52,289 nt of DNA from Candidatus Saccharimonadota bacterium (GTDB taxonomy: Bacteria > Patescibacteriota > Saccharimonadia > Saccharimonadales > Saccharimonadaceae), in assembly GCA_017506895.1 (NCBI GenBank), contig JAFWBV010000008.1, positions 1 through 52,289 of the forward strand, in the 5' to 3' direction. The translations under genes were made by a program, and so were the position numbers. Positions 1,852 through 25,892 of this stretch are shown piece by piece (the stretch's first letter is position 1; each line of letters starts with the position of its first letter). Under the pieces are notes generated by a model. The model saw nothing but the letters and a program-made list of their open reading frames with translations. It made no database searches and was not told the origin of the DNA.

Positions 1852-3072
1852 CTAATCACGCTTCAGCATTACCGTAAATGCTTCACTCGGAATATCAATT
1901 TTACCAAATCTTTTCATTCTGGCTTTGCCACGTTTTTGTTTTTCAAGTAGTTTCGCCTTGCGGTCTCGGTCACCAGTATGAATCTTAACTGTCACATCTT
2001 TTCGGTATGCTCCAATCGTTTCTCTCGCAATTATCCTTGCTCCAATCGCCGCCTGAAGTGCCACCTCATAGTTTTGTCTTGGAATAACTTCCTTTAGCTT
2101 TTTCGTAACTTCTCGCCCTATCGCATCTGCTTCGCTTCGGTGCGACATCACCGAGAGCGCGTCCATCTTATGCCCACCGACTAAAAAATCTACCCTTACC
2201 AAATCTTCTGCACGATATCCTGAAAGTTCATAGTTAAACGACGCGTATCCCGAAGTAGCCGATTTTAGTTGATCATAGAAATCAGTTAAGAGATTTGCCA
2301 TCGGCGCTTCAAAATCTATTACGGCACGATCTTCGATATACGACACACTAGTTTGGTGTCCACGTTTTTCGTTGATAAGATTTAAAACGTTACCAATCAT
2401 TCCCTTCGGCAAAATTATTTCACCTTTCACCCAAGGCTCTCTTACTTCTTTTATTTCGGAAGGATCAGGAAGATCTGATGCAGATTTAATATCAATTTCT
2501 TCACCATTATTCATTACAACTTGATAGTTAGTTGAAGGATTAGTAACAATAAGATCGAGATTAAACTCACGTTCAAGACGCTCTTTGATAATGTCCATGT
2601 GAAGTAGACCGAGAAAACCGATGCGAAGGCCAAAACCAAGCACAGGAGAGTTCTCAGGTTCAAATTTAAGAGCCGAGTCCGAAAGCGCAAGTTTCTCAAC
2701 AGCTTCTTTTAGATCTTTATATTGATCGTTACTGACTGGAAAAAAACCAGCATAAACAAAAGGTAGGACATTTTTATAACCAGGGAGTGGCATCTCAGCT
2801 GGAACTTTGGTAAGAGTAACAGTATCGCCGACTTTAGCTTCACGAGTAGTTTTAAGATTCGTAACAATGTAGCCGATTTCGCCTTCTTTTAATTGATCTT
2901 TCGGGGTCATTTTTGGTGTTAATATCCCAACTTCAAGAGCAAGGCCTTTAGTTTTAGTCGCCATCATGTAAATTTCAGAATTCTTGTCAATTTCACCATC
3001 AAAAATCCGCACATAAAGAACGACACCACGATAATCATCAAAGAAAGAATCAAAAATCAATGCTCTAGTCAT
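1852..3072 (-). CDS. lepA: LepA (EF-4), separate C-terminal part: domains II to CTD
   Basis: The 406 residues match elongation factor 4 from the start of domain II to the LepA-specific C-terminal domain. The beginning ('ALIFDSFFDDYRGVV') corresponds to the canonical 'ALIFDSWYDPYRG' that directly follows the GTPase domain. Also visible are 'GLLHMDIIKERLEREF' (domain III region) and the basic 'KQKRGKARMKRFGKI' near the end of the CTD. LepA is a translational GTPase that acts on stalled or back-translocated ribosomes, but this ORF has no G domain; that is encoded by the next ORF upstream. The two are in the same frame, separated by 69 nt with in-frame stops. A promoter-like element (TTGCTA, 17 bp, TATAAT, 6 nt, ATG) precedes this ORF. 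It could be a genuine gene fission or a broken gene; intact coding on both sides favours fission. Confidence 0.85.
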   Translation of the reverse strand: MTRALIFDSFFDDYRGVVLYVRIFDGEIDKNSEIYMMATKTKGLALEVGILTPKMTPKDQLKEGEIGYIVTNLKTTREAKVGDTVTLTKVPAEMPLPGYKNVLPFVYAGFFPVSNDQYKDLKEAVEKLALSDSALKFEPENSPVLGFGLRIGFLGLLHMDIIKERLEREFNLDLIVTNPSTNYQVVMNNGEEIDIKSASDLPDPSEIKEVREPWVKGEIILPKGMIGNVLNLINEKRGHQTSVSYIEDRAVIDFEAPMANLLTDFYDQLKSATSGYASFNYELSGYRAEDLVRVDFLVGGHKMDALSVMSHRSEADAIGREVTKKLKEVIPRQNYEVALQAAIGARIIARETIGAYRKDVTVKIHTGDRDRKAKLLEKQKRGKARMKRFGKIDIPSEAFTVMLKRD

Positions 3073-3078
3073 ATATAT

Positions 3079-3107
3079 ATTATATAATCTATTGTTAAAT
3101 CTAGCAA
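3079..3107 (-). promoter_or_regulatory. Internal promoter between the two lepA ORFs
   Basis: TTGCTA and a perfect TATAAT are separated by exactly 17 bp, and the -10 ends 6 nt before the ATG of the C-terminal lepA ORF. This predicts a leaderless transcript for the second half. No Shine-Dalgarno site is visible. Confidence 0.6.
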
Positions 3108-3141
3108 TATAAAAGACAGCTACTTAAAACAAATACTAAAG

Positions 3142-3687
3142 TTAGATTTTTCTCGGCGCTGGAGCAAAAGTGATAAGGCGATCTAAAATCTGGTCAACAT
3201 TCTGCCCCGTTTTACCAGAAACTTTGATGATATCATCATCTTTACAACCCAAAAGGTTAATAATTTCGGCAGAAACCTTATCAATATCAGCAGCTGGAAG
3301 ATCAATTTTATTAATAACCGGAATAATATAAAGGTCCTGCTCAAGCGCCAAATATACATTAGCAAGTGTTTGTGCCTGTATCCCCTGTGTCGCATCCACT
3401 ACCAAAACCGCCGTCTCTACTGCCTGTAAAGACCTACTTACCTCATACGAAAAATCCACATGCCCTGGCGTATCAATTAAGTTCAATACATACCCCTTCC
3501 AGTTCATCGTTACTGGAGTGAGTTTAATCGTGATGCCTTTCTCACGCTCAAGTTCCATTGAATCGAGTAGCTGTTCCTTCATCTCTCGCTTTGCCACCGT
3601 ACCCGTGAGTTCCATCATTCTATCCGCAATTGTCGACTTCCCGTGGTCAATATGCGCAATAATACAAAAATTCCGTATCTTTTCCAT
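3142..3687 (-). CDS. lepA: LepA (EF-4), separate N-terminal GTPase domain
   Basis: The 181-aa ORF is a complete translational GTPase G domain. It has G1 'AHIDHGKST' (about residues 10-18), the G2 region 'EKGITIK', G3 'DTPGH', G4 'NKID' and a G5-like 'SGKTG'. It ends 'APAPRKI' at the point where normal LepA enters the linker to domain II. It then meets a TAA, followed by two more in-frame stops before the second ORF. All GTP-binding motifs are intact, so the domain is probably folded. The start is preceded by TATAAT 7 nt upstream. It lies downstream of pnp, behind that gene's terminator. Confidence 0.87.
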
Positions 3688-3694
3688 ATTTATT

Positions 3695-3700
3695 ATTATA
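3695..3700 (-). promoter_or_regulatory. -10 box TATAAT, 7 nt before lepA N-terminal ORF
   Basis: A TATAAT hexamer ends 7 nt before ATG with no Shine-Dalgarno site, so a leaderless or near-leaderless start is expected. Confidence 0.55.
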
Positions 3701-3721
3701 TAATATTTTCTTTAATTTTAC

Positions 3722-3743
3722 AAAAACAGCCCCGAAGGGCTGC
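3722..3743 (-). terminator. Intrinsic terminator after pnp
   Basis: On the minus strand CAGCCC-TTCG-GGGCTG (a UUCG tetraloop hairpin) is followed directly by five Ts, just after the pnp stop codon. Confidence 0.85.
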
Positions 3744-3752
3744 TTTCATAGT

Positions 3753-5927
3753 TTACTTTACTCCAATCATCGATAGTGATAATTTTCCGTTATCAATCGC
3801 TACCAGTCTTACACGCACCTTATCTCCCACATGCAATACTTCGTCAACCTTCTTTAGCCTACGACCTTCCACAATTTGCGAAATATGAAGCATTCCATCA
3901 ATTCCCGGCATAATATTTACAAACGCTCCAAAATCCTTAATAGATACTACTGTTCCATCATATATTTTCCCTACTTCCGGCTCTTCAACTAGCGATTTTA
4001 TCCAATCTAGAGCCTTTTGAATCTTTTCTGGATCATTTCCCGAAACTGTAACTAGACCAGAATCTTCAATATCTACTTCCGCCCCAGTTTCAGTTGTAAT
4101 CTTATTAATCATTTCACCGCCTTTACCGATAATCGCGCCAATCTTTTCTGGCTTCACCATCAGCTTTTCAATTCTCGGTGCATAAGGCGAAATCTCGGCG
4201 CGTGGGCCATCAATTACTTCCTTTATATGTTTCAAAATAAACATTCTACCTTCATGCGATTGTTTCAACGCTTTTTCCATAATTTCTACAGGAAGCCCAT
4301 GTACTTTCATATCCATCTGTAGCGCTGTCACACCCTGGTCAGTACCAGTTACCTTAAAGTCCATATCTCCAGCAAAATCTTCCGCATCCATAAGATCTGT
4401 CAAAACATACGCCTTATCAACGTCTTTTGCTGTAATCTCCGAACCCTTCGGCACATCAACCATTAACCCCATCGCTACCCCAGATACCGGTCGCTTAATC
4501 GGCACACCAGCATCCATGAGAGCCATACAGGACGAACAAGTCGCCGCCATTGATGTCGAACCATTTTGTGACATAATCTCAGTCACTGAACGAATCGCAT
4601 AAGGAAATTCTTCTTCTGATGGCAACACTGGAATTAAAGCTCTTTCCGCTAAATACCCGTGCCCAATTTCACGCCTGCCTGGCGAACCAATTCGGCCCGG
4701 CTCTCCTACCGTATAGGACGGTGCATTATAATGATGCATATAGCGACGCTTACCATCCGTGACTTCCATCGTATCCACATCTTGTGAATATGACAAAGGT
4801 GCCAAAGTTACGATATTCATCGCCTGTGTCACACCACGCGTAAATAACGAAGAACCATGCGTCCTTGGCAAAATCCCCACCTGACTTGATAATGGTCTAA
4901 CTTCATCGAGCTTACGCCCATCTGGTCTTACACCTTCTTCTACAATTCCCCTACGTACTTCCTTATGGACCGCTAGTTCAAATGCCTGATCATAAACATC
5001 GCGTAAATTCTCATCATACCATTCCACTTTTTCATTGTCCGTCTCGCCCTGACCTTTAGCTAATGCAAATTCATCATGCATCGCATATTTAATATCATCC
5101 AAAATATGCGCTCTCTCCATCACATTCCCACGTACTTTCGAACCAAATTTCCCCTTCGTCCACTCTTCGACCTCTTTCAGAATCTCTTCATCTGGAAGTA
5201 CTAATTCATACTCTTGCGGCGTTGCGTCAACTTGTTTAGCTAACTCTCTCTGCAAATCTAATACTGGCTTAACATTATCAACTGCCCAACGCATCGCTTC
5301 AATGATTGTTTCTTCTGGGATTTCTTTCATTCCAGCTTCCACCATCATTACTTTCCCATCTTTGCAAGCAACCACTAAATCCATCGGTGAAGCATCTCTC
5401 TCTTCAGCCGACAAAAATCCCTTAAACTCACCGTCAACCTGTCCAATACGGATTCCCGCCACTGGTCCATCAAATGGCACTCCCGCGTTCATCAAAGCTG
5501 ACGAAGCCGCTATCATTGCTACGCAGTCTGGTCTAAATGCCGGATCCATTGACAACACCGTACAAACTACCTGAATCTCTTGACGATAACCTTTCGGGAA
5601 TAAGGGTCTAATCGGCCTATCAATCAAACGTCCAACGAGCACTGCTTCATCCGCCGGTTTGCCTTCTCTCTTGATAAAACGAGAACCGCTAATTTTCCCC
5701 GCCGCATACCATTTTTCTTCATAGTCAATAGAAAGTGGGAAGAAATCTTGCACTACCGGCTTCGTTCCTACTACTACTGAACCTAAAACCACCGTATCAC
5801 CGTAGGTTACCAGCACCGAAGAAGTCGAACGAAAACCGACTCTATTTACTTCTAATGTAAGCTTACGGCCCAACCATTCTGTTGACACAGAAATCGTCTT
5901 CTTGCCATTAGGATTAATAATATCCAT
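3753..5927 (-). CDS. pnp: Polyribonucleotide nucleotidyltransferase (PNPase)
   Basis: The 724-aa protein is full length for PNPase, the phosphorolytic 3'-5' exoribonuclease of RNA turnover. Two RNase PH-like halves are present; the second contains 'PLSSQVGILPRTHGSSLFTRG' and 'REIGHGYLAERAL'. They are followed by a KH domain (GxxG loop 'IIGKGGEMI' near residue 600) and a C-terminal S1 domain (from about residue 654). The start follows an AAAGGA Shine-Dalgarno sequence. The gene has its own promoter about 190 bp upstream and a GC-rich hairpin element in the leader, plus a terminator just downstream. PNPase autoregulates through its leader in E. coli; a similar arrangement here is plausible inference. 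Confidence 0.97.
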   Translation of the reverse strand: MDIINPNGKKTISVSTEWLGRKLTLEVNRVGFRSTSSVLVTYGDTVVLGSVVVGTKPVVQDFFPLSIDYEEKWYAAGKISGSRFIKREGKPADEAVLVGRLIDRPIRPLFPKGYRQEIQVVCTVLSMDPAFRPDCVAMIAASSALMNAGVPFDGPVAGIRIGQVDGEFKGFLSAEERDASPMDLVVACKDGKVMMVEAGMKEIPEETIIEAMRWAVDNVKPVLDLQRELAKQVDATPQEYELVLPDEEILKEVEEWTKGKFGSKVRGNVMERAHILDDIKYAMHDEFALAKGQGETDNEKVEWYDENLRDVYDQAFELAVHKEVRRGIVEEGVRPDGRKLDEVRPLSSQVGILPRTHGSSLFTRGVTQAMNIVTLAPLSYSQDVDTMEVTDGKRRYMHHYNAPSYTVGEPGRIGSPGRREIGHGYLAERALIPVLPSEEEFPYAIRSVTEIMSQNGSTSMAATCSSCMALMDAGVPIKRPVSGVAMGLMVDVPKGSEITAKDVDKAYVLTDLMDAEDFAGDMDFKVTGTDQGVTALQMDMKVHGLPVEIMEKALKQSHEGRMFILKHIKEVIDGPRAEISPYAPRIEKLMVKPEKIGAIIGKGGEMINKITTETGAEVDIEDSGLVTVSGNDPEKIQKALDWIKSLVEEPEVGKIYDGTVVSIKDFGAFVNIMPGIDGMLHISQIVEGRRLKKVDEVLHVGDKVRVRLVAIDNGKLSLSMIGVK

Positions 5928-21099: not shown

Positions 21100-21735
21100 T
21101 TATTTCGGCAAAAGTAAAAATGCTACCGTACCAGCCGCCGCCCCCAAGATAATAGTAATAATTATAGTCGCAATTAAGCCAGCCTTCTTGTCTTTATCCG
21201 GCTTTTCGATTATCGTTACGGGACCCTTTGTCTCCTCTTTTGGTGGCACAATCTCTTTCTGATAAGCGTTTCTCGATAATGGCCTTTTTACTACTTTCTC
21301 TTGGTTAATAAACGGGCTGTTTGGCATTTTAAAAGTATCTCTTTTTGACTGTTCAGCGCCACGATTTAATGGCTCTATCCGACCAAAATCATCTTCTAAT
21401 CTTGGTTTTTTTCTTAAAATCTTTTTGGCCTTTACGTTTTTTACAGTTTCTTTTTCGTCTTTCTTGTCGTTTAATGGCCTTTTTTCTACCGTACTACCAA
21501 TAAACCTATCATTAAGATCTTGAATTACACCAAAATCTGATTCATTATCGAATTTAAACCTATCATCTGTAACCTTGCCAAATTGTTCACTCGAATCAAC
21601 CCTATTAATCTTTGTAGTCACGCGCGGCACCTGAACTCTAGGCACAGCCTTATAAACATCCTTTTTTGGTACAGGTGGTTTCTCTTTAACAGCAGTTTTT
21701 CGTGCCGGCACAAAATCTATGTATCTTTTATTCAT
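21100..21735 (-). CDS. Basic protein with C-terminal membrane anchor
   Basis: The 211-aa protein is almost entirely charged and Pro/Lys-rich (probably disordered) until a single C-terminal transmembrane helix (about residues 185-208). Such tail-anchored topology leaves the bulk in the cytoplasm. Its start overlaps the tpiA stop by 4 nt (ATGA), indicating translational coupling. The N-terminus contains PxxP-like segments. I recognise no family. Coupling with tpiA may be organisational rather than functional. Confidence 0.75.
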   Translation of the reverse strand: MNKRYIDFVPARKTAVKEKPPVPKKDVYKAVPRVQVPRVTTKINRVDSSEQFGKVTDDRFKFDNESDFGVIQDLNDRFIGSTVEKRPLNDKKDEKETVKNVKAKKILRKKPRLEDDFGRIEPLNRGAEQSKRDTFKMPNSPFINQEKVVKRPLSRNAYQKEIVPPKEETKGPVTIIEKPDKDKKAGLIATIIITIILGAAAGTVAFLLLPK

Positions 21736-22502
21736 GACCTCACTCTCTTTGCCGTACCAATTATATCAATAAATTCTCCCAAAATCAAACTCGACCCACC
21801 AATCAAAAGCCCATTAATGCCAGGCACCATCAAATACGAACCGCAGTTAGACGTATTGACGCTACCACCGAACAAAATCGGCACTTTTTCAGCCAACTTC
21901 GCCCCATAAATATCAGCCAAATTCTTCTTAATCAGTTTTACTACTTCAGCTATCTCGTCAGGCGTAGCCAGTTTTGATGCCTTGGTAGACGAAATCGCCC
22001 AAACCGGTTCATACGCTATAATCACTTTGTCCAAATCGTCATCTGACACATCCCTAAGACCGCCCATCAACTGATCACGAATCACGTCCGAAGTTTCACC
22101 AAATGCTCTCTCTGATTCAGTTTCTCCGATACAAAGAATCGGGGTGATTTTATTACGAATAGCCGCCTCAACTTTTTTTGCAATCATCTTATCATCTTCC
22201 CTAAAAACATAGCGTCTCTCTGAGTGACCGATAATAGCATAGTCCACTATTCCGCGCAATTGCGAAAATGACACTTCCCCTGTAAATGCTCCATAATCAC
22301 GATAAAAACCATTTTGTGCAGCTAATTTAATCTTATGACGATCTACCTGTAAAGATAGCGATTGCAAAGCCAAAAGAGATGGGGCTATCACCACTTCAAT
22401 ATCACGATAATTTGGTAGGTTTTTTAAAATTTTATGAAGATAAATCGAAGCCTCGCCTACGGTAAAGTTCAGCTTAAAGTTGCCCACAATGTAAGTTTTC
22501 AT
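21732..22502 (-). CDS. tpiA: Triosephosphate isomerase
   Basis: TpiA interconverts dihydroxyacetone phosphate and glyceraldehyde 3-phosphate. The 256-aa TIM barrel shows 'GNFKLN' (catalytic Lys region), 'IGHSERR' (catalytic His, near residue 95), 'AYEPVWAI' (catalytic Glu, near residue 168) and 'GGSVNTSN'. 'NFK' replaces the usual 'NWK'. A TATAAT ends 6 nt before the ATG, so the mRNA is predicted leaderless. The promoter overlaps that of the divergent HAD gene. The aldolase gene lies on the other side of the HAD gene, making a lower-glycolysis neighbourhood. Confidence 0.95.
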   Translation of the reverse strand: MKTYIVGNFKLNFTVGEASIYLHKILKNLPNYRDIEVVIAPSLLALQSLSLQVDRHKIKLAAQNGFYRDYGAFTGEVSFSQLRGIVDYAIIGHSERRYVFREDDKMIAKKVEAAIRNKITPILCIGETESERAFGETSDVIRDQLMGGLRDVSDDDLDKVIIAYEPVWAISSTKASKLATPDEIAEVVKLIKKNLADIYGAKLAEKVPILFGGSVNTSNCGSYLMVPGINGLLIGGSSLILGEFIDIIGTAKRVRS

Positions 22503-22535: not shown

Positions 22536-23294
22536 ATGAAAAAAGTATTAGCATTCGATATAGATCAAACCTTAAATGTCGCCAAAACTCCAATCACAGA
22601 CGACATCGCAGAATTATTAGTCAAATGTTTAGACCATTTTGAAATATGCCCCATCTCTGGTCAAAAATTTGATCAATTTCTCATCCAAATTGTAAATCGC
22701 TTGCCAAACCCTACCGAAGAGCAACTCAGTCATCTACATCTTTTCGTAGCTCAAGGCACTCAATACTACCGTCGTGAAAACGGCGAGTGGAAACAAGTTT
22801 ACAACTACCCATTGACAGAAGAACAAGTCGCCAAAATCACCTCTACTATTGAGCAAGCTGCCAAAGAACTTGGATTTTGGGAAGAAGACAAATTACAGGC
22901 CGGAGATGAAATCATCGAAAATCGTCTCTCTCAAGTTACTTTTTCAGCACTCGGCCAAAAAGCTAGTACCGAAGATAAATACGCCTGGGACCCAGACCAC
23001 AAAAAACGTGAAAAAATCGTTGCGCGCTGCAAAGAACTCAGCCCTGAATTTGATTATGAAATTGGTGGCACCACATCAATCAATGCCATCACCCCAGGAA
23101 TGAATAAAGTTTTTGGCATGACTCACTTGCTAGAAGAATTAAATGTTCAAAAAGAAGATATTCTCTACTTTGGCGATATGACTCAACCTGGTGGCAACGA
23201 TTACCCAGTCGTCCAAATGGGCATCGACACTATCACCGTCCGCAATCATGAAGATACTGCTTTTGCCCTTAGAGGTATTCTGGGTATTCTATAA
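22536..23294 (+). CDS. HAD-superfamily (IIB type) phosphatase, phosphomannomutase-like
   Basis: The 252-aa protein has HAD motif I 'FDIDQTL' (about residues 7-13), motif II in 'PISGQ', a Lys in the cap/motif III region and motif IV 'YFGDMTQPGGNDYPV' (about residues 209-223). The insertion between motifs II and III and the 'GDMTQPGGNDYP' ending resemble eukaryotic-type phosphomannomutase and sucrose-phosphate phosphatase relatives. It is probably a sugar-phosphate phosphatase or mutase; the substrate is not readable. It is transcribed with the downstream aldolase, which also has its own promoter. Confidence 0.82.
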   Translation: MKKVLAFDIDQTLNVAKTPITDDIAELLVKCLDHFEICPISGQKFDQFLIQIVNRLPNPTEEQLSHLHLFVAQGTQYYRRENGEWKQVYNYPLTEEQVAKITSTIEQAAKELGFWEEDKLQAGDEIIENRLSQVTFSALGQKASTEDKYAWDPDHKKREKIVARCKELSPEFDYEIGGTTSINAITPGMNKVFGMTHLLEELNVQKEDILYFGDMTQPGGNDYPVVQMGIDTITVRNHEDTAFALRGILGIL

Positions 23295-23315: not shown

Positions 23316-25208
23316 ATGAACATCTTAATAGTGGGCAATATTTTAAACGATGTCTATCTTAATCTCGACCCCAGAACAGAACGTTTAGAGACCGACAAAC
23401 ATGGCGTCAAATGGCTCAATCTAAGTTTTGATGCCAGTGAACACCATTTCTTTAGTAAAAACAACAGCTTAGGTGGCGCTGCGGTTACTCTCGAAGTTTT
23501 AACTAAACTCGGGTTAAACGCCGCCGTCAACAACTTTGACCTTCATTTTACTGAAGACGGTCCAACTTTCACAACTCCAATCGAAACCAGTCGTTATATT
23601 CTTATTTCTAATGAAAATATCTGTTACTTAGCCCCTTCAACTTTTAAAAATACTTCTTTTACTATCCCCACTACAGAATATGATTATCTTTATATTGATC
23701 GTTCCGCATCGCTAAATCAAAGCACCGTTAATAGTATTAATTCCTATTTAGACACGTCCCCTAATACAAAGCTCGTTCTCTATATTCGCAACCCACACGA
23801 GCCTCGTCTTTCCCCTTTATTAGCGCGAGCCGATCTTATTTTTTGCGAAAACCTTTCGGAACTTTCATCCGCGCTTTCATTTAAGAATAGCCCCCTAGCT
23901 AAACTCGCCCCATCTAAAATTGTCGATATTTCCGAAAACCATTTAACATATAATCAAATCACTGAAAAAATATCCATTAATCGCATCGATATGCTTACCC
24001 ACTTATCCGCTTACTCTATTTCCTCGGCAACCATACTCGGAGCTTTTATTTTAGGTTTTTCAGTAGAAGAAAGTCTAAAATTTGCCCGCATCAATGTTGA
24101 ACAATCAAAACTTGATTCCGTCCTATCTCTCGATCACATCCAAAACATTGCTAAAGCCCCCAATCAAAAAGACGATCTCGAATTAATAGCATCAAATCTA
24201 GTTTTAAATCCAAAAGGCATTTTAGCAGCTGATGAATCAGGCGGTTCCATTCATAAAAAATTCGAAGAACTAAACATCGAAGACACCTATAACAACCGCC
24301 GCGATTATCGTAACATCTTCTTCACAACTCCCGAAATCGAAAATTACGTTAATGGAATCATTCTTTTTGACGAAACCGCTCGACAATTTGCTGATAACGG
24401 ACAAAATTTTGTCGATTATCTTACCGCCAAACGTATCATACCTGGCATCAAAGTCGATCAAGGTCTCGAAAAATTTGGCGACTCGATTCCGACAAATTAC
24501 ATTCCTAACCATGATTACATCCCGACCGAAACCTGGACCAAAGGCTTAAACGGTTTAGATAAGCGTTTAGCCGATTATTACCAAATGGGTCTCCGCTTCG
24601 CAAAATGGCGAGCTGCATTCGAAATCCATTTGGACGACCAAAACAATTATCTAACTCCAACCGATACCGCTATAGAAACCAATTGTCGCATACTCAGTCA
24701 ATATGCTTCCAAATGCCAAAAAGCTGGTCTCGTCCCCATCGTTGAGCCAGAAGTAGTGTATGACGGCAACTATTCTATCGAACAAAACGCCGAAACCACT
24801 GCCAAAATACTCGACTGTCTCTTTACAAATCTTGAACAAGCCCAAATCGATTTACGGGCTTGTATCCTAAAAGTCAACATGGTTCTTGCCGGCAAACAGT
24901 TCATCACTCAATCATCGCCCGAAGAAGTTGGTCATAAAACCGCAGAAGTATTAAAAAACCACATACCAAATAATCTTGCCGGTGTAGTGTTCCTTTCTGG
25001 CGGTCAAACGCCCGAACAGACTACGGACAACTTTAAAGAGATTGTTAAAAATGGTCCATACGCCTGGCCAGTCACCTTTTCTTTTGCTCGTGCTTTGCAA
25101 GCTCCGGCGCTCAATGCTTGGGCTGGCGATAATCAAAATGCCGAAAAAGTCCGCCAAGCTTTTCTTGACAGGCTTATCGCAAATACATCTGTTTTTTCTA
25201 CAGAATAA
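23316..25208 (+). CDS. Degenerate PfkB-like domain fused to class I fructose-bisphosphate aldolase
   Basis: The 630-aa protein has two parts. Residues about 290-630 are a class I aldolase that cleaves fructose 1,6-bisphosphate. They carry 'GILAADESGGSIHKKF', 'GIKVDQGL', 'FAKWR' (near 428), 'IVEPEVVYDG' (near 475), the Schiff-base Lys in 'ILKVNMV' (near 518) and 'FLSGGQTPEQ', so the active site looks intact. Residues 1-280 resemble a ribokinase/PfkB fold ('GNILNDVYLNLD', 'LGGAAVTLEVLTKLGLNA'). However, the GAGD anion-hole/catalytic-base motif is replaced by 'HLSAYSISSATILG' near residue 230, so kinase activity is doubtful. The leaderless promoter confirms the start. Confidence 0.85.
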   Translation: MNILIVGNILNDVYLNLDPRTERLETDKHGVKWLNLSFDASEHHFFSKNNSLGGAAVTLEVLTKLGLNAAVNNFDLHFTEDGPTFTTPIETSRYILISNENICYLAPSTFKNTSFTIPTTEYDYLYIDRSASLNQSTVNSINSYLDTSPNTKLVLYIRNPHEPRLSPLLARADLIFCENLSELSSALSFKNSPLAKLAPSKIVDISENHLTYNQITEKISINRIDMLTHLSAYSISSATILGAFILGFSVEESLKFARINVEQSKLDSVLSLDHIQNIAKAPNQKDDLELIASNLVLNPKGILAADESGGSIHKKFEELNIEDTYNNRRDYRNIFFTTPEIENYVNGIILFDETARQFADNGQNFVDYLTAKRIIPGIKVDQGLEKFGDSIPTNYIPNHDYIPTETWTKGLNGLDKRLADYYQMGLRFAKWRAAFEIHLDDQNNYLTPTDTAIETNCRILSQYASKCQKAGLVPIVEPEVVYDGNYSIEQNAETTAKILDCLFTNLEQAQIDLRACILKVNMVLAGKQFITQSSPEEVGHKTAEVLKNHIPNNLAGVVFLSGGQTPEQTTDNFKEIVKNGPYAWPVTFSFARALQAPALNAWAGDNQNAEKVRQAFLDRLIANTSVFSTE

Positions 25209-25211
25209 TTG

Positions 25212-25892
25212 TTATTCAGCTTTCTCTTCAGCTGCTGCTTCCTCTGGCTTGCTACCATTATCTGCCGGTACATCAGCTGCTTCAACTTCTGGCTCTTCTG
25301 ACTGCGCTTCGCGCTTTTCTGCTTCGGCTGCTGGATCATAGAGAGATGCAACCACCTGCTCAGGGTCAAGTTCCTTATCCGCCAATACTACACCTTCAGG
25401 CAATTTAATATCTGAAATTGTCAATTTATCGTCAATTTCTTTAAGCTTAGAAGCATCCAACGTTAACTCATCTGGCAAATCTGCCGGTTTTGCCTTAACA
25501 TCTAATTCTTCAATTGATTGTGTCAAAGCAAAATGATAAATCTTTGATGCTTCTGATTCTTCAAATCCTACAATTACTACTGGAGTAGTCGCTTCTACTA
25601 CTTCCTTAGCAGAAATTGCCTGAAATTCTACGTTGATAATCTTTCTAGAAACAGGGTCGATATGCACATCTTTTACGATAGCCATCTTCTTTTTTCCATC
25701 AATATCCAAATCAACAGGTGAGTGGTACCCAGCTTTTACGAGCACCTTCTCAGTTTCTACATATTCTGACGATGTCAAAACAGGTTCTTTGCCACCATAA
25801 ACAACCGAAGGGATCAAACCAGTAGCTCTTAATTCTTTTAGTTTTTTTCCTGTAATTTCACGCTCTTTTAAGCTCAGCTTATATTCAGCCAT
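25212..25892 (-). CDS. rplY: 50S ribosomal protein L25 (Ctc/long form)
   Basis: The 226-aa protein is the long L25/Ctc type that binds 5S rRNA. It has an N-terminal L25 domain ('SLKEREITGKKLKELRATGLIPSVVYGG' region, residues 5-32), a C-terminal TL5-like beta domain (to about residue 185) and an acidic Ala/Glu tail. It has an AAAGGAAA Shine-Dalgarno site and follows grpE by 30 bp. Its 3' end faces the aldolase gene with only 3 bp between stops. Confidence 0.93.
   Translation of the reverse strand: MAEYKLSLKEREITGKKLKELRATGLIPSVVYGGKEPVLTSSEYVETEKVLVKAGYHSPVDLDIDGKKKMAIVKDVHIDPVSRKIINVEFQAISAKEVVEATTPVVIVGFEESEASKIYHFALTQSIEELDVKAKPADLPDELTLDASKLKEIDDKLTISDIKLPEGVVLADKELDPEQVVASLYDPAAEAEKREAQSEEPEVEAADVPADNGSKPEEAAAEEKAE

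Follow-up and report, generated by a model that had tools for sequence, protein, structure and literature searches.

What does a kinase-like domain do in front of a glycolytic aldolase once its own catalytic motif is gone? The question is raised by a gene in the window analysed here, a stretch of 52,289 nucleotides from a Candidatus Saccharimonadota bacterium. Phosphofructokinase (PFK) and fructose-bisphosphate aldolase (FBA) catalyse consecutive steps of glycolysis, and the original prediction, made from the DNA letters, described an aldolase fused to a kinase-like domain without its catalytic motif. The gene agrees with that description: its reading frame of 630 residues is unbroken, from the ATG at 23316 to the stop at 25208 on the forward strand, and GAGD was not found anywhere in the protein. 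The genomes concerned belong to a group of gut Saccharibacteria and are about 0.7 Mb in size, where useless sequence should vanish fast. The features of the locus are collected in Table 1; the codes G, g, f and L used below are labels of this analysis for genomes, genera, families and loci.

Table 1. Features of the fusion gene and its neighbours, in positions of the window.
Feature	Position	Strand	Size or basis
Fusion gene: PfkB-derived putative pseudokinase domain + class I fructose-bisphosphate aldolase	23316..25208	+	630 aa
N-terminal domain, residues 1-285, ribokinase fold	23316..24170	+	AF2 model + fold search
D12, invariant, aligned with the sugar-binding Asp of PfkB kinases (GxxxxD)	23349..23351	+	alignment
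G53-G54, di-glycine motif kept	23472..23477	+	alignment
T228-H229-L230-S231-A232-Y233-S234, conserved substitute for DRT-GAGD; Ser234 = catalytic Asp position	23997..24017	+	alignment
Class I fructose-bisphosphate aldolase domain, residues 288-624	24177..25187	+	PF00274, NCBIfam FrucBisAld_I, VIA
K519, Schiff-base lysine (rabbit K229)	24870..24872	+	alignment
HAD-IIB family phosphatase, co-directional, 21 bp upstream of the fusion	22536..23294	+	
Triosephosphate isomerase, divergent neighbour, synteny conserved	21732..22502	-	
Convergent neighbour, conserved at most loci	25212..25892	-	

The fusion is not a product of chance or of an assembly error, because 85 of the 88 sampled genomes of the genus carry the N-terminal domain (N-domain), about 76 of these on an open frame of fusion size. 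The phosphatase gene, which is phosphomannomutase/Cof-like, is kept upstream at many loci, being co-directional with the fusion (HAD+ FUS+) in about 45 cases among 80 related loci; many of these loci stop at contig edges. Its product is a possible functional partner of the fusion, for example as a sugar-phosphate phosphatase. At the other end, the fusion frame stops 3 bp short of the end of the convergent gene, whose product we take, judging its translation by eye, to be ribosomal protein bL25. At two loci where the fusion is eroded (L242, 2198-2333; L243, 2301-2436), its 3' end runs about 136 bases into the convergent bL25-like gene.

The C-terminal part of the protein is readily recognised. 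The Pfam model PF00274 matched residues 288-624 with an E-value of 2.3e-97 and 326.4 bits (cut-off 22.2), and the NCBIfam class I FBA equivalog FrucBisAld_I (NF033379) scored 365.5 bits (cut-off 250). The complete set of catalytic residues claimed by the original prediction was found, namely D306, K379, K430, E477, K519, S561 and R592, which correspond to D33, K107, K146, E187, K229, S271 and R303 of the rabbit enzyme according to equivalences assigned by reading the sequences. These residues are invariant among 54 full-length relatives (alignment A3), and in a wider set of 91 aligned rows the 8 scored sites, E479 included, are all intact in 75, while E479 alone deviates in 3 more. Structure alignment with rabbit aldolase A and with the FBA of Bartonella henselae (3mmt) found the TIM-barrel aldolase fold (VIA Z 49.9, rmsd 1.4 over 332 residues, 40-46% identity). 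The protein thus shares with ordinary class I aldolases a complete domain and all catalytic residues, and differs from them by the extra 285-residue N-terminal pseudokinase. To judge from its sequence, the gene product would be a working class I FBA carrying that pseudokinase at its N-terminus.

The N-domain was not recognised by sequence. When residues 1-285 were searched singly, and as a 29-member profile, against Pfam, NCBIfam and PDB sequences, no usable match was obtained, and PF00294 was not matched by any of the 29 members. Because the sequence tools gave no match, its PfkB-like identity rests on the fold search. The AlphaFold2 model of the N-domain, built from a 64-sequence alignment, reached a mean pLDDT of 90.5 and a pTM of 0.89, and Foldseek returned 276 PDB chains at E<=0.001, of which the best 50 all belong to the ribokinase superfamily and include ketohexokinase, ribokinase, HldA and PfkB-type PFK. 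In comparison with a putative E. coli ribokinase, 253 of the 285 residues were aligned with a VIA Z of 20.0 and rmsd of 3.6. The original prediction had called the domain PfkB-like and proposed that a predicted structure be compared with ribokinases; AlphaFold2, Foldseek and VIA all led to the ribokinase fold, and the prospect of its absence fell away. The N-domain derives from a PfkB kinase. In the full-length model (pTM 0.61), the relative orientation of the two domains is of low confidence.

Alignment with intact PfkB relatives locates what was lost and what was kept. The GAGD columns read SAYS, the glycines of the anion hole have disappeared, the NxxE and VITDGxxG motifs are lost, and the GAQAG loop has a 9-residue deletion, with about 35 more residues missing further upstream. 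In sequence terms, PfkB signature 2 with its catalytic Asp is missing from the N-domain, as are the nucleotide-binding loops (NxxE, VTxGxxG, GAxxG). On the sugar side, D12 and the di-glycine G53-G54 are retained. The glycine motifs without GAGD noticed in the original prediction are therefore there, as G53-G54 and as the GN...D formed by G7, N8 and D12. The GAGD motif is gone in essentially all of about 80 relatives, and at residue 234, where the catalytic Asp would stand, the 81 aligned relatives have Ser in 79 cases, Leu in 1, Asn in 1 and Asp in 0, with a conserved T-H-L-[ST] preceding the Ser234 region. The catalytic motif has truly been lost, and the loss is old.

A changed catalytic residue alone is no proof of a dead kinase, since ThiD-type kinases of the ribokinase superfamily have Cys instead of Asp. 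From the sequence as a whole, we infer that the N-domain is a pseudokinase from which phosphate transfer is gone. A domain still acting as a 6-phosphofructokinase, in a bifunctional PFK-aldolase, would suit its PfkB ancestry, the GAGD kept in the fusions of sister genera and the consecutive order of the two reactions; however, the catalytic Asp is absent in 81 of 81 aligned relatives, the nucleotide loops are deleted and the genome has a separate canonical PfkB, and such an activity is very improbable.

This separate enzyme bears on how glycolysis proceeds in the bacterium. The genome was found to contain no PfkA-type PFK (PF00365) and no class II FBA (PF01116), and its one canonical GAGD-containing PfkB lies in a GAPDH-RpiB-Rpe-PfkB cluster. 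FBP synthesis would fall to this PfkB, encoded elsewhere in the genome. In the saccharibacterium TM7x, glucose use via glycolysis has been demonstrated, and the phosphofructokinase role has been proposed for a PfkB that adjoins FBA (PMC12815258). Loss of the kinase in the fusion need not break glycolysis, because there is a separate canonical PfkB and the PfkB of TM7x is a proposed PFK. In another family, a standalone class I FBA is situated directly upstream of a canonical-type PfkB. Among the tested genera with the pseudokinase, class II FBA was found in none except in G355, and for most species of the genus the PF00274 and PF01116 models detected no FBA other than the fused class I domain. 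A second class I FBA copy with frameshifts and stops occurs in one genome (G375, C7:99729-100724), which has an intact fusion elsewhere. These observations bear on the question of which protein performs the phosphofructokinase step in Saccharibacteria, and on the control of glycolysis in obligate episymbionts.

The origin of the fusion can be followed in related genera. In the sister genera g46 and g80, the same fusion is found with an intact DRTGAGDAF kinase domain and a length of 669-708 aa (L177, L187, L224-L226). These proteins resemble the pseudokinase fusions in domain order and aldolase clade, whereas they keep DRTGAGDAF and occur in genomes that also have a class II FBA. A tree built from the aldolase domain separates all fused aldolases, as a single clade, from 10 standalone class I aldolases of Patescibacteria (100/97), with the pseudokinase fusions in one clade (89/79) and the intact-kinase fusions in another (99/98). 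In the kinase-domain tree the pseudokinase sits on a very long branch, and the aldolase tree was used for the history instead. The simplest history suggested by these sequences is a single fusion of an active PfkB to a class I FBA, followed by a single loss of the kinase. One loss of the motif is probable; two losses are possible, because genus g44 joins the other pseudokinase fusions with moderate support. The ancestor was likely, by the same sequence comparison, a bifunctional PFK-aldolase that later became a pseudokinase-aldolase, and its substrate would have been fructose 6-phosphate. The claim of the original prediction that kinase and aldolase join consecutive glycolytic steps is thus fair for the ancestor, rather than for the present protein, given the GAGD-bearing fusions of the sister genera and the proposed PFK role of a PfkB beside FBA (PMC12815258).

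The same PfkB class, with no aldolase attached, occurs in many further genera of the family, where it usually follows a different N-terminal domain of about 170 residues and adjoins a canonical PfkB; a class II FBA is also present in the genome. At L172, L173, L176 and similar loci of sister genera, an intact PfkB lies behind this unrelated domain, directly after the canonical PfkB, and at L051 (5398-6654) a separate gene beside FBA-PfkB opens with a stretch similar to the domain of about 170 residues. A descent of the fused domain from a copy of the genome's canonical PfkB ('type A') was considered and rejected: the proteins matched by the profile of the fused domain are of the other PfkB class ('type B', with scores of up to 61 bits), and none of type A reached its threshold. 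A direct profile comparison of the N-domain with the genome's canonical PfkB gave a probability of 4%, which is not significant. The genome is one of Saccharibacteria, the name borne by related contigs, including those of Candidatus Nanosyncoccus alces. The original prediction had suggested that the fusion be sought in other CPR genomes; in a sample of 380 genomes of the phylum it was found in family f1 only, as fusions of 605-669 aa, and class I FBA frames elsewhere do not exceed 405 aa. Judged by this sample, the fusion seems to have arisen at the level of the family.

The most informative relatives are those in which the two halves have parted. The N-domain stands alone in G304, G042, G005, G333, G336 and G340, and the aldolase half is degenerate or partly deleted in G254, G324, G323, G039 and G052. 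All of these genomes lack class II FBA, and class I FBA is absent genome-wide in the four that were searched for it (G304, G042, G005 and G340). An explanation of the short forms as contig-edge artefacts was rejected, the flanks being intact at L048, L049, L190, L240, L241, L242 and L243; L104, G004 and G399, which are or may be cut by contig ends, were left out of the counts. Parsimony on the N-domain tree gives about 8 changes to aldolase loss or erosion, at least 2 of them forced by well-supported branches. In G355 (L184), a standalone pseudokinase gene (2519-3400) shares its last 8 bases with the start of a class II FBA gene (3393-4355), an arrangement in which the class I aldolase domain has apparently been replaced in place by a non-homologous class II aldolase.

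The sister species G005 and G336 (L049 and L241) go further. Both genomes are 95-97% complete, and neither has a match to PF00294 (PfkB) or PF01116, or an aldolase half at the fusion locus; the genome-wide search for class I FBA (PF00274) was carried out in G005. Upper glycolysis seems, by gene content, to have been lost in this pair while the pseudokinase stays. Between the two species the N-domain shows a pN of 0.077 and a pS of 0.767, which indicates purifying selection without either partner, unless the losses were separate and very recent. A role of the N-domain solely as partner of the canonical PfkB was rejected, since this pair keeps it without any PF00294 match.

Selection was also estimated by simple counting (NG86). 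In the six closest pairs, the dN/dS of the N-domain is 0.02-0.10, like that of the aldolase, and at larger distances the median is 0.25 for the N-domain vs 0.14 for the aldolase. The altered domain is thus under long-term purifying selection, also in species without the aldolase. Its faster evolution at larger distances and its long branch in the kinase tree are what would be expected of a relic, that is, of decaying baggage ahead of the aldolase; yet the low values in close pairs, the residues invariant across the genus and the fact that species which have lost or eroded one half keep the N-domain and give up the aldolase make this reading scarcely credible, and the selection data largely refute it. 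The N-domain probably has a job of its own that is as yet undescribed.

The pattern of conservation suggests where that job is done. Across 64 sequences, 17 positions are invariant, including N8, D12, E25, D27, R93, D128, S130, N260 and E262; G7 and G54 are also invariant, and T228-H229 and S234 are nearly so. According to the DSSP string of the model, read together with the alignment, the invariant polar residues would mostly fall where strands end and helices begin, at the substrate-holding sites of ribokinases. A purely structural role, with the N-domain as a module for assembly, stability or localisation of the aldolase only, would account for a fold kept after loss of the catalytic and ATP-binding elements. 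It has a precedent in the plant FLN pseudokinases, proposed structural parts of the chloroplast RNA polymerase complex, and the pairing in G355 suggests that the N-domain goes with an aldolase of either class. Nevertheless, several species keep the N-domain without class I or class II FBA, and 17 invariant positions, many of them polar and at active-site locations, exceed the need of a bare scaffold. Survival of the N-domain after loss of the aldolase in several species means that a plain scaffold for the aldolase is insufficient, and we consider this role rather unlikely. The original prediction had suggested a sensor or scaffold; these species speak against the second of these, if it is meant for the aldolase alone, and the first may apply.

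A ligand-binding regulator is favoured because the invariant polar residues would sit where ribokinases hold substrate. A pseudokinase-aldolase with a metabolite-binding regulatory N-domain is the best explanation of the sequence evidence, and we give it about an even chance of being correct. The N-domain would use the cleft of its former active site to bind a sugar phosphate, or a metabolite related to one; where fused, it would regulate the aldolase in cis, and as a standalone protein it would act on another partner. Since species lacking the aldolase still have the domain, aldolase regulation can be only part of its function. If a sugar phosphate does control the aldolase via the fused domain, this would be an unrecorded regulation of a textbook enzyme.

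The same (nearly) invariant polar residues at cleft positions could instead serve a new reaction, in which T228-H229-L230-[ST]...S234 and D128-R129-S130 replace GAGD. Strong purifying selection would be compatible with such an enzyme, as would its occurrence as a free-standing gene in several species, two of which lack FBA and PfkB. On the other hand, the ATP-binding loops are shortened or deleted, the searches of Pfam, NCBIfam and PDB found no known enzyme with such a motif, and the gene neighbourhood hints at no reaction beyond the nearby HAD phosphatase; this option is decidedly doubtful. Covering both a regulatory and an enzymatic outcome, a fuller history can be offered as a tentative but serious possibility: an active PfkB was fused to FBA in a saccharibacterial ancestor, lost its ATP site and was rebuilt as a new regulatory or enzymatic protein. 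Today this protein would be attached, in most species of the genus, to the one FBA that was found; in one species it is paired with a substituted class II FBA, and where FBA and PFK are missing it persists by itself.

Each ingredient of this protein has a counterpart among known systems. The N-domain is like the sugar kinases of the PfkB/ribokinase superfamily (E. coli Pfk-2, RbsK, ketohexokinase) in fold (Z 18-20), sugar-side Asp and di-glycine, and unlike them in having neither GAGD nor NxxE, in its deleted nucleotide loops and in the lack of a PF00294 match. The plant FLN proteins, also members of the PfkB family, have an altered GAGD and no FRK activity (PMC9698557), and a structural role has been proposed for them (PMC4036507). 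FLN1 and FLN2 resemble the N-domain, for which inactivity is suggested by sequence, in the altered motif; in contrast to it, they keep the Asp (GSGD or ASGD), lack an aldolase fusion and serve chloroplast transcription.

Fusions of a ribokinase-fold kinase to an aldolase of the same pathway are represented by IolC/IolJ (NF047869) in the inositol pathway and by the KHG/KDPG aldolase-sugar kinase (NF041633) in the KDPG pathway. These involve other aldolase families and pathways and an active kinase, and in the NCBIfam search the 630-residue protein matched neither model. The original prediction considered the fusion unfamiliar from characterised bacteria, and in the literature searched, which covered few subscription journals, no description of a PfkB-FBA fusion or of its pseudokinase descendant was found. 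PfkB pseudokinases and kinase-aldolase fusions are thus already known, whereas the PfkB-FBA combination and its pseudokinase descendant were not found described. Separate PFK and aldolase genes, a fusion whose kinase is intact and finally a pseudokinase-aldolase form an ordered series, which represents a good natural case of an enzyme turning into a regulator.

A further homologue was observed in genus g78, where L186 (G400, 2712-4472) encodes a protein of 587 aa whose two halves both look degenerate, since GAGD is missing and the catalytic residues of the aldolase cannot be recognised; its genome gave neither an FBA match nor a full PfkB match. From its sequence, the product is possibly a double pseudoenzyme.
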